Shown one piece after another: positions 4,965 through 8,517 of a stretch of DNA of 30,561 nucleotides. The DNA comes from a virus, in IMG/VR virus record IMGVR_UViG_3300033806_000084, positions 1-30,561 of that record, one strand, 5' to 3'. Below the pieces are notes generated by a model. The model was not told the DNA's origin. It saw only the letters and a program-made list of their open reading frames with translations, and did not search any database. How positions within the stretch are numbered: position 1 is the stretch's first letter; every line of letters starts with the position of its first letter. The translations under genes were made by a program, and so were the position numbers.

Positions 4965-5237
4965 CTATTGGGAGAGCACCTCGACAAACCTCCGTACAGA
5001 TATCTCTAAAACGGAAACGTTCAATAGCTTAGCGAATTTTATGAGTGTGTTCGTATTCAACGGCAATCTTCCGTGTAAATAGTGATTCACGGTGGTATAG
5101 CTATCGAACTTCATATATTCCGCCGCTTTCACTTGGGTCAGGCATAGGGATTTCTTCTTCTTTTCCCAGATTGCCAATAAGCGGGCAGCCGCTGCCTTCT
5201 CTTCATCAGTCAGCTCTCTACGACCACTACGTTTCAT
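4965..5237 (-). CDS. Short HTH transcriptional repressor (CI-like, XRE family)
   Basis: A 90 aa DNA-binding protein, probably the lysogeny repressor. The N-terminus is basic (MKRSGRRELTDEEKAAAARL). Residues about 32-78 have an XRE-type helix-turn-helix pattern: LTQVKAAEYM, then TTVNHYLHGR and LPLNTNTLIKFAKLLNV. It has no C-terminal peptidase domain, so it would not respond to RecA by self-cleavage as lambda CI does. The ATG at 5237 is preceded by a near-perfect ribosome site, GGAGGAAGGAT. It is divergent from the cro-like gene and lies between the att site and the replication genes. It could instead be the Cro of the pair, but its size and orientation towards int favour the repressor role. 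Confidence 0.7.
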   Translation of the reverse strand: MKRSGRRELTDEEKAAAARLLAIWEKKKKSLCLTQVKAAEYMKFDSYTTVNHYLHGRLPLNTNTLIKFAKLLNVSVLEISVRRFVEVLSQ

Positions 5238-5262
5238 ATCCTTCCTCCAAAACAGACAAGAA

Positions 5263-5315
5263 TGTTACCAATGCTAACAGATTGTAAAACATTATAAAAG
5301 TAACTATTGATAACA
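5263..5315. promoter_or_regulatory. Two operator-like dyads between repressor and cro
   Basis: Site 1 (5263-5279) has arms TGTTA and TAACA around 7 bases. Site 2 (5299-5315) matches the reverse complement of site 1 over its last 10 bases, ATTGrTAACA, and has a weaker other half. The sites are 36 bp apart. Site 2 overlaps the putative cro -35 box, as expected for repressor control. A minus-strand TATAAT (5291-5296) between them could be the repressor -10 box. Confidence 0.55.
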
Positions 5316-5335
5316 TCTGCGATATGATTTAAAAT
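5307..5335 (+). promoter_or_regulatory. Putative cro (early right) promoter
   Basis: TTGATA (5307-5312) and TAAAAT (5330-5335) are separated by 17 bp, 18 bp ahead of the cro-like ATG. The -35 box lies inside operator-like site 2, so a bound repressor would block it. Confidence 0.6.
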
Positions 5336-5352
5336 CATGGTTGGAGGTGAAG

Positions 5353-5571
5353 ATGAAGTCCGACCATGCAGAAATCTTGAAGAAATATTTGATCGACAGT
5401 GGCACCACGCAACGGCAGCTAGCGCGCCAGGTTGGGGTCACTGATAACTTCGTGAATCACTGGGTACATGGGCGCCGACCCATCCCTATCGTTCGGGCCA
5501 AGAAAGTGGAGGAAGCAACAAAGGGAGCTATCCGGCGCGAGCAACTCTATCCTGACATTTTCGCATCCTGA
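5353..5571 (+). CDS. Cro-like regulator of the YdaS family
   Basis: A 72 aa HTH protein. Residues about 15-68 follow the YdaS/Cro pattern: TTQRQLARQVGVTDNFVNHW, VHGRRPIPIVRAKKVEEAT, then the characteristic end IRREQLYPDIF. YdaS-like proteins act as Cro-type repressors in many lambdoid and proteobacterial prophages. The start is the ATG at 5353 after GGAGGTG; an in-frame TTG at 5341 lies before that site and is unlikely to be used. It is divergent from the repressor gene, and is expected to shut off the repressor promoter and favour lytic growth. Confidence 0.8.
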   Translation: MKSDHAEILKKYLIDSGTTQRQLARQVGVTDNFVNHWVHGRRPIPIVRAKKVEEATKGAIRREQLYPDIFAS

Positions 5572-5917: not shown

Positions 5918-7420
5918 ATGAAAAGTGATCGAAAACTGTCTGTCATAAAGCTACCGCAACCACCTGCCAGTTCGCCTGAAGCTGAACAGAATGTGCTTGG
6001 TGGATTGCTATTAGAAAGTGATGGTTGGGATAAAGTAAAGGCATTGATCCAATCTGGAGACTTTTTCCTCGGCAACCATTCCATCATTTTTTCCGCAATA
6101 CATGAATTAGCCACTAATGGGTGTTCATACGACGTAATAACCGTAGGGGACATACTGGAGAGAAAAGGAGAACTAGAAAAAATAGGGGGATATCAATATC
6201 TAGCCATATTAGCCAGAAATACACCGAGCACTGCGAATATCCATGTCTATGCAGCCATTGTTAGGAGGAAAGCACTGGAGCGTAGGCGGATAGACGCTGT
6301 GGCTAACGGGCGCTGGGAAGAAGTGAATGCGCTAACCGATGCGATTACCATCCTGGAAGCCGGAGGGCAGGCACTCATGCTGCCCACAATAGACGAAATT
6401 CTCTCCAGGGATATAGATAATAATTGGCTGATTCAAGGATGGTTAGAGCATCACCAGACAGCCGTTTTGTTTGGTGAGTCGCAAAGCTATAAATCGCTGT
6501 TGGCCATCGATATGGCCTGTTGTATCGCCACCGGAAACCCCTGGAGGGACAACCCCGTAAAACAAGGAGGTGTCCTGTATATTGTCGGAGAAGGTGCGGG
6601 TGGTGGTATCACACGCCGTTTTACGGCGTGGCAAATAGCTAACAAAATTAAATTAAGTGGGTGCCCTCTCTTCTTCGTGGAAACTCCGACCACTCTACCA
6701 GACGATCTTTCCAAACTAATGGTAGGAGTCAGAGAAACTCTGCGAGAAAAGGAGTGGACACTCAATCTGATCATTCTGGATACGCTATCCAAGACAATGG
6801 CTGGGGATGAGCGTAGTAGTGCTGATTTCAATGCCTATCAACGGACATTGGACAATCTCAAACAGCAGTTTTCTTGTAGCTGTTTGATTATTCACCACAC
6901 AGGCCATATGAACAAAACCCGGGAACGTGGCGTCAGTGAAATTGCATGCAACACTGACGTGCGGTTGGCCATGGAGATTATAGGGGAAAAGACCCGGCGA
7001 TTGCGTGCCATCAAGACTAAAGATGCAGAGACGCCGCCTGAGATGATCTTTACGCTGGCCACAGTGGAATTAGGTGGTGCAAATCACGGAACACCCGTCA
7101 CCAGCGTCGTGCTGCGACAATTGTCGCAGGAAGATCAGCCGGCATTGGACCACGTACCGGCGCAAGCTATTCTTGCTCTCAAGGTGCTTTATCGTCTTGA
7201 AGAGACGTACCGCAAAAATCTGGACGATGCCGGATTCCCCAACGGGATTGTCAGGGTGTCAGCGGATGATTGGAAGACCGCATTTTTCACTGAGCTGTCT
7301 GCAGAGCTAGGACCCACTGCTAAGCGCGTAGCGTGGAATAGGGTTAAGACAGTTCTTCTGGAAAAACGGAAAGTGATGATTGAGAGTGGTTTCGTAAGCG
7401 TTATATCGTCCTCGCCATGA
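5918..7420 (+). CDS. Replicative helicase: DnaB-N domain fused to RepA-type AAA ATPase
   Basis: A 500 aa replication protein. Residues about 15-125 (SPEAEQNVLGGLLL, the helical HSIIFSAIHELATNG and IGGYQYLAILARNTPS parts) match the N-terminal domain of DnaB, which binds primase and stabilises the hexamer. Residues about 165-390 are not DnaB-C but a RepA/AAA_25-like RecA fold: Walker A GESQSYKS with K192, Walker B NLIILD with D288, and an IIHHTGH sensor at 324-330. The C-terminal 100 residues may bind DNA or a loader. It would unwind the phage origin; the GTAAC cluster begins 4 bases after its stop. The ribosome site (GAGATAACAAG) is weak. No separate loader or phage primase is seen. Confidence 0.8.
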   Translation: MKSDRKLSVIKLPQPPASSPEAEQNVLGGLLLESDGWDKVKALIQSGDFFLGNHSIIFSAIHELATNGCSYDVITVGDILERKGELEKIGGYQYLAILARNTPSTANIHVYAAIVRRKALERRRIDAVANGRWEEVNALTDAITILEAGGQALMLPTIDEILSRDIDNNWLIQGWLEHHQTAVLFGESQSYKSLLAIDMACCIATGNPWRDNPVKQGGVLYIVGEGAGGGITRRFTAWQIANKIKLSGCPLFFVETPTTLPDDLSKLMVGVRETLREKEWTLNLIILDTLSKTMAGDERSSADFNAYQRTLDNLKQQFSCSCLIIHHTGHMNKTRERGVSEIACNTDVRLAMEIIGEKTRRLRAIKTKDAETPPEMIFTLATVELGGANHGTPVTSVVLRQLSQEDQPALDHVPAQAILALKVLYRLEETYRKNLDDAGFPNGIVRVSADDWKTAFFTELSAELGPTAKRVAWNRVKTVLLEKRKVMIESGFVSVISSSP

Positions 7421-7423
7421 ACA

Positions 7424-7634
7424 TGTAACGTTTTGTTACGCTAGTATGAGAATGGCTCTACAGTGGGTCTCAGCAAGCGTTACATCAATGTAACGCTGAC
7501 GTAACAAAACGAAACAAAACGTTACATCGATGCATACAGGAGCGATGCGTTACATTTTGTTACATCCCCCTTAAGGGGGATGTAACAAAATAATGTAACG
7601 CTCGCGATGCATGTAACGCTTTCAGATCGTAACA
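7424..7634. repeat. Candidate replication origin: 12 GTAAC/GTTAC elements with palindromes
   Basis: The 233 bp non-coding gap between the helicase gene and the gene at 7654 contains 12 copies of GTAAC in either orientation: 7425, 7435, 7479, 7490, 7501, 7521, 7549, 7559, 7582, 7595, 7613 and 7629. Most fit TGTAACG or TGTAACA. Less than one would be expected by chance. Several are arranged as inverted pairs, including perfect 10 bp arms AGCGTTACAT/ATGTAACGCT (7476-7497, 2 bp spacer). The layout is that of an iteron or DnaB-loading origin, or of a large operator. Confidence 0.65.
7555..7590. repeat. Perfect 36-bp palindrome at the centre of the GTAAC cluster
   Basis: Each half is TTTTGTTACATCCCCCTT followed by its exact reverse complement, centred on CTTAAG at 7570-7575. 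Two GTTAC/GTAAC elements lie in the arms, and outer copies flank it at 7549 and 7595. It lacks a trailing T-run, so it does not look like an intrinsic terminator. As RNA or single-stranded DNA it would form a 16 bp stem with a TTAA loop. Confidence 0.9.
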
Positions 7635-7653
7635 CTTCAAAATGAGGTATCTA

Positions 7654-7902
7654 ATGAGCGAAGCAACGAAAGAAGAAATTCTGAAGGATGCCATGAATGC
7701 ATACATCGCAAGGCGGGCGAAGCAGACGAAGAGAATATATGAGGTAGAGCTGAAGCAACTCGAACACACTATTCTGCTACGTCTCATCGCTGACAGCGAT
7801 GAGGATGCATTGATGCAAACTCATAAGGCACGACAGATTACTGCGAACCTATGTGAGTACCTAATAGGGGATGTGCGCCAATTAAATCCCCTCGACCTTT
7901 GA
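7654..7902 (+). CDS. Hypothetical helical protein, 82 aa
   Basis: Not recognised. The start chosen is the ATG at 7654 (MSEATKEEIL), 5 bases after GAGGT; an ATG at 7642 upstream lies ahead of that ribosome site. The protein is almost entirely charged helix (residues about 3-60, EEILKDAMNAYIARRAKQTK) with heptad-like spacing. It has no membrane segment. It is the first gene after the origin-like cluster, with the last GTAAC element 20 bases from its start, so it may be controlled by whatever binds there. Confidence 0.6.
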   Translation: MSEATKEEILKDAMNAYIARRAKQTKRIYEVELKQLEHTILLRLIADSDEDALMQTHKARQITANLCEYLIGDVRQLNPLDL

Positions 7903-8229: not shown

Positions 8230-8485
<256 letters not shown>

Positions 8486-8517
8486 TGACAGCTACTACTA
8501 CGGTAAAACTTAGGGCA

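Follow-up and report, generated by a model that had tools for sequence, protein, structure and literature searches.

What is the dense cluster of GTAAC sites that directly follows the helicase gene of a virus, and which protein reads it? The cluster lies in IMG/VR record IMGVR_UViG_3300033806_000084, a linear virus fragment of 30,561 bases that we refer to in its entirety as the window. Integrase, exonuclease and helicase genes occupy its + strand, and head, tail and terminase genes its - strand. Searches for near relatives of the window DNA and of the helicase gave none.

The iteron cluster and the helicase beside it

Twelve copies of GTAAC or GTTAC lie between positions 7425 and 7633, seven on the + strand and five on the - strand, where shuffles of the window predict about 0.25 per 210 bases (36.4 copies per 30,561 bases). 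The maximum in any other 210-base stretch of the window is 3. This recount agrees with the original prediction, made from the sequence alone, of 12 copies in 210 bases against fewer than one by chance, most of them TGTAACG or TGTAACA. The exact heptamer TGTAACG accounts for seven copies (three on one strand, four on the other), and the remaining five are TGTAACA or CGTAACA. The shorter palindrome, with its 10-bp arms and 2-bp spacer, is as first described. The longer one had been given as a perfect 36-bp palindrome at 7555-7590; it is indeed perfect, but its length is 38 bp, in two 19-nt arms with no spacer. The first GTAAC site falls 4 bases past the helicase stop codon, which bears out the placement of the cluster directly after that gene. 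Coordinates are collected in Table 1.

Table 1. Features of the iteron cluster and its flanking genes (positions in the window)
Feature	Position	Strand	Remarks
Helicase gene, 500 aa, proposed origin-binding initiator	5918..7420	+	DnaB N-terminal domain, RecA-fold AAA_25 core, predicted C-terminal winged helix
Codons of predicted C-terminal winged-helix domain, residues 405-500	7130..7417	+	AlphaFold models, pLDDT mostly >90
Codons of predicted recognition helix H3, residues 466-482	7313..7363	+	includes AKRVAWNRVKTVLL
V471 codon	7328-7330	+	covaries with iteron bases 4-5
R475 codon	7340-7342	+	probably base 2
Iteron cluster, proposed replication origin	7424..7634	.	12 GTAAC cores
GTAAC cores, + strand	7425, 7490, 7501, 7582, 7595, 7613, 7629	+	
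GTAAC cores, - strand	7435, 7479, 7521, 7549, 7559	-	
Inverted iteron pair, AGCGTTACAT-CA-ATGTAACGCT	7476..7497	.	10-bp arms, 2-bp spacer
Perfect 38-bp palindrome	7554..7591	.	contains inverted pair of TGTAACA iterons
Next gene, 86 aa	7642..7902	+	82 aa from the start at 7654 first proposed; weak matches only

The position of the cluster directly 3' of the gene is that found for initiator helicases with a downstream iteron origin, of the SaPI Rep or P4 alpha kind. A classical iteron plasmid origin has tandem direct iterons of ~17-22 bp in one orientation, and the cluster does not follow this plan: its sites are 7 bp long, divided 7 to 5 between the strands and unevenly spaced. The original prediction had called the mixed orientation unlike ordinary iterons, which is correct for the classical tandem pattern; yet mixed orientation is normal in kin origins, including the annotated P4 crr. 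An oriC/DnaA-type origin was rejected on the absence of DnaA boxes, with no exact TTATNCACA in the window and no site within one mismatch of TTATCCACA at 7201-7900. No AT-rich unwinding stretch is outstanding. Because the window is a linear fragment whose strand skew follows the direction of transcription, skew is uninformative on the location of an origin.

Two other regions of the window deserve mention. Around 4965-5340, divergent small HTH genes (4965-5237 on the - strand and 5341-5571 on the + strand) resemble a CI/Cro switch, with a single GTTAC (5264) and a single GTAAC (5300) between them. At 8233-8500, a GC-rich tandem repeat (GGCTCCGGCTCC...) lies at the 5' part, as counted from a putative start, of an ORF with a RusA-like C-terminal part (phrog_244).

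Pfam recognizes only DnaB (PF00772, 1e-27) and AAA_25 (PF13481, 2.7e-32) in the window's helicase. Among solved folds its predicted core is best matched by RSF1010 RepA (1olo, Z 23.4, rmsd 2.5 over 222 residues), the three top matches being 1olo, 1g8y and 1nlf (Z 22.7-23.4), and RSF1010 RepA is also the closest solved structure by sequence. The protein thus belongs with the RSF1010 RepA-like (AAA_25) helicases, which have a RepA-type RecA-fold hexameric helicase core. The match to RSF1010 RepA stops before residue 410, and the predicted C-terminal winged helix of the window's protein is extra. In RSF1010 the iterons are bound by a separate protein, RepC. The SaPI Rep and Cch2 families proper were rejected for this helicase, which is without a DUF927 or Primase_Cterm/D5_N domain, as was identity with the TIGR01714 replisome organizers, whose domain it does not match.

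Judging from the models, the C-terminal domain is likely of the winged-helix fold class, with predicted helices at residues 415-437 and 449-459, H3 at 466-482, and a wing of two strands. Structural matches to this domain are generic winged helices and include origin-recognition and plasmid Rep domains (Z about 8), and we therefore claim no specific winged-helix relative.

Iterons and the predicted recognition helix across helicase relatives

Scanning viral contigs for TGTAACG clusters yields matches in many unrelated phages. A scan with the reversed heptamer, used as a control, also yields many matches, so that raw match counts carry little meaning. Among the matches listed, dense two-strand clusters make up 47 of 119 for TGTAACG and 13 of 120 for the control. 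A first set of 98 loci, each with at least 7 copies and sites on both strands, has two prominent settings: directly 3' of relatives of the window's helicase, and inside genes of another protein kind. The cluster lies directly 3' of the helicase gene in 7 of the 9 phmmer relatives found near GTAAC clusters. Three PVT/PT proteins (L147, L195 and L213) were set aside, their GTAAC clusters being coding repeats.

A second set was assembled blind to the repeat. The full alignment of relatives diverges too much to yield usable patterns as a whole. Helicase peptide patterns were used to gather 160 helicase loci, 102 of them non-redundant. The region from -60 to +400 of the helicase stop was compared with 510 control windows from the same loci. 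A significant two-strand iteron cluster is present at the helicase 3' end in 62 of 102 loci versus 8 of 510 control windows, the profile seeds being GTAAC-selected helicases, such that the closest relatives are not fully independent and the more distant ones are. Significance was not reached in the other 40 of the 102 relatives. The search in related phages proposed along with the original prediction places clusters at the same position in relatives. The repeat itself varies by helicase, and includes TGTGACG, TGTCCCG, TGTCACG, TGTTACG, TGTCCG, TATCCCG, GGGAACG and others. Three loci (L487, L896 and L898) have a different helicase C-terminus and dense G+C-rich iterons (ACTTCCG, GCGGAGAT and GCGGAA types), mostly in one orientation. 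Another group (L715, L723, L747 and about 12 others) comprises viral helicases with RRFKE in the C-terminal helix and TGTACCG iterons, 8-15 copies each.

Within the Rhodobacteraceae clade of L424, the iteron varies between close proteins in step with the residue that follows the conserved arginine of AARxAFxRxK. The helicases of L424 (V, TGTAACG) and L449 (T, TGTGACG) are 92% identical and differ in iteron letters. At the position of residue 471, V accompanies TGTAACG, T TGTGACG, M TGTTACG, Q TGTCACG and K TGTCCCG; the window, with V471 and TGTAACG, fits this code. We widened the code table with loci from genomes and viral contigs, a few of which (the window, L368, L444, L210 and L356) were found via TGTAACG. 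With relatives grouped on the remainder of the protein and each group counted once, 31 of 39 agree with the code, and mutual information reaches 1.67 versus 0.62 in shuffles. On a hold-out restricted to groups from other clades than the one behind the rule, the code gives the correct dinucleotide in 24 of 32 cases, against 7.2 in shuffles, with none of 20,000 shuffles doing as well, and the correct base 4 in 27 of 32. Column 471 is the top iteron predictor among 330 columns (z 9.8), followed by 467 and 470 of the same helix. Because residue 471 tracks iteron bases 4-5 across relatives, this covariation points to the helicase itself as the very probable reader of the cluster.

The second arginine of the motif, R475 in the window, probably reads iteron base 2, as suggested by the few cases in which variants at this position accompany an altered TGT half (Q with TATCCCG, K with GGGAACG, A or S with GGTAACG). 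Arginine to G and glutamine to A are classical contacts.

Exceptions to the code are L457, L502, L645, L672, L654, L510, L526, L210/L356 and plasmid pKp_Goe_795-4. Four of the five named phages and plasmids examined last fit: p101 of Rhizobium phage 16-3 (RQRFNR, with 15 TGTCACG-type cores past the gene), RHph_X2_25 (RQRFNR, 16 copies of TGTCACG), a Pseudorhodobacter turbinis replicon (RTAFGR, TGTGACG) and a Xanthobacter dioxanivorans plasmid (RKAFKR, TGTCCCG). The misfit is pKp_Goe_795-4 (RKSFPR, TGCGGC). Where relatives do not have the R-X-x-F-x-R helix, the clustered repeats are of other kinds (Alteromonas phage PB15, Idiomarinaceae phage 1N2-2, RHph_N65) or missing. As a side observation, pKp_Goe_795-4 (L894) and Caenibius p1 (L898) have no PLSDB replicon type, and in each the gene for this type of helicase is followed by dense iterons (TGCGGC and GCGGAA, respectively); it is possible that these plasmids are unrecognised replicons.

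In-gene iterons of TIGR01714 replisome organizers

Six proteins with in-gene GTAAC clusters were compared with NCBIfam: two match TIGR01714, one gives a weak DnaD-domain match and three match nothing. Among ORFs with a selected GTAAC cluster inside, 29 of 34 have the motif R-V-x-x-[HYF]-R, versus 5% of other ORFs, and the five cluster-containing ORFs without it are repeat proteins or doubtful frames. We also gathered 36 non-redundant TIGR01714-type organizers blind to the repeat. At least four GTAAC copies lie inside the gene in all 23 organizers with the motif versus 1 of the 13 without it (P 1e-8, not corrected for kinship).

These organizers, although seemingly of a family unrelated to the helicases, resemble the window in their TGTAACG iteron and in a basic helix with the same R-V-x-x-x-R spacing. 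They differ in having no helicase domain and in carrying the iterons within the organizer gene, and their helix sits after the N-terminal domain, whereas that of the window is H3 of the predicted C-terminal winged helix. In lactococcal phages, the origins bound by the organizers are repeats inside the organizer genes themselves (PMC8965321), which supports in-gene iterons as origins in general. The organizer genes of TP901-1, Tuc2009 and r1t, which are known in-gene origins, have neither a GTAAC cluster nor an RVxx[HYF]R helix, and the shared iteron therefore does not reach these phages. When 203 gammaproteobacterial genomes were searched for TGTBACG triplets, few loci emerged, and none contained an organizer with another residue, so that within the organizers the code stands on its V entry. 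Organizer L831 may add an entry to the code: it has RERFKKF in place of RVxxHR, and its gene contains 8 copies of CGTTAG (CTAACG). Five further organizers (L813, L827, L834, L839 and L868) have R-N-x-x-Y-R and few or no GTAAC copies.

On balance we favor a shared code in the R-X-x-x-x-R helix, in which X (residue 471 in the window's helicase) would set bases 4-5 of TGTnnCG (V-AA, T-GA, Q-CA, M-TA, K/R-CC) and the second arginine would set the TGT half. RepA-like helicases and TIGR01714 organizers would then share V-to-TGTAACG, whether by convergence or by helix exchange. No residue-to-iteron code for these families was found in the open-access papers searched, in which the concept of a helicase with downstream iterons is present. 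As far as the open-access literature searched extends, the arrangement in RepA-like helicases at large scale, the residue-to-base code and the overlap with organizers are new.

Origin, operator or accessory site

From these sequence comparisons, the cluster is very probably a phage replication origin, with the adjacent upstream helicase serving as its own initiator. The original prediction had proposed a probable origin bound by the helicase or by some other initiator. It gains support here, and the clusters of relatives together with the covariation point to the helicase itself. Each subunit would bind one TGTAACG iteron through its C-terminal winged helix, with R470, V471 and R475 on H3 contacting bases. 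The roughly 12 sites in mixed orientation would gather several subunits, presumably as one or two hexamers facing in opposite directions, and these may melt nearby DNA and load, perhaps bidirectionally, as replicative helicases.

There are precedents in other helicase classes. SaPI Rep helicases act through their C-terminal domain on iterons that lie just past the gene, and the isolated C-terminal domain of SCCmec Cch2 binds such repeats (PMC7581432). SaPI Rep and SCCmec Cch/Cch2 thus share with the window a helicase with a C-terminal DNA-binding domain (predicted, in the window) and short iterons directly downstream. They are of the DUF927 or D5/Primase_Cterm type, whereas the window's protein has a RecA-fold RepA-like core and a DnaB N-terminal domain. 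P4 alpha and crr share the short mixed-orientation iterons immediately 3' of the helicase gene, and the P4 iteron TGTTCACC begins with TGT, as does TGTAACG; unlike the window's helicase, alpha is a primase-helicase of another class whose C-terminus has no R-X-x-F-x-R helix. By analogy, the window would work like SaPI Rep, Cch2 and P4 alpha, on a different helicase fold.

The P4 comparison also provides an alternative, that the cluster is an accessory site required in cis, with the true start of synthesis elsewhere. In P4 the iterons past alpha constitute crr, and the origin is annotated about 4.5 kb away, where the same repeats recur as a second set. Since P4 shows that iterons in this position may be required in cis without marking the start of synthesis, we retain this reading as an unlikely one; there is no second GTAAC cluster in the window, itself a fragment. 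A large operator, through which the winged helix or another protein would control the gene at 7642 and the downstream operon without firing replication, strikes us as very improbable. The cluster does lie between two genes of the same direction, winged helices often repress, and covariation speaks for binding and not for origin activity. However, promoter-like sites at the cluster are at chance level (1 versus 0.9), no terminator-like site is found at the cluster or its 38-bp palindrome, and the CI/Cro-like divergent pair elsewhere looks like the lysogeny switch. Moreover, the partner conserved across relatives is the upstream helicase, which leaves the operator, originally offered as an alternative for a gene starting at 7654, weaker than the origin. 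Least probable of all is that GTAAC is bound by a separate small phage protein or host factor, which in turn brings in the helicase. Other phages do use separate organizers, and those of TIGR01714 share the iteron, but the covarying positions fall within the helicase's own C-terminal helix, and iteron letters switch between helicases as close as those of L424 and L449.

Few phage origins have been mapped so far. If the helix of an initiator predicts its iteron, the origins of many uncultured phages and prophages could be annotated by sequence. If the code is true, origins and their specificity would be predictable from protein sequence across many phages, as would compatibility and cross-talk of co-resident phages and satellites. 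Close winged helices that differ mainly at one residue, and iterons that differ at one or two base pairs, form a natural set in which the evolution of DNA-binding specificity becomes directly testable. The same signature in two classes of initiator raises the question of convergence versus domain exchange.
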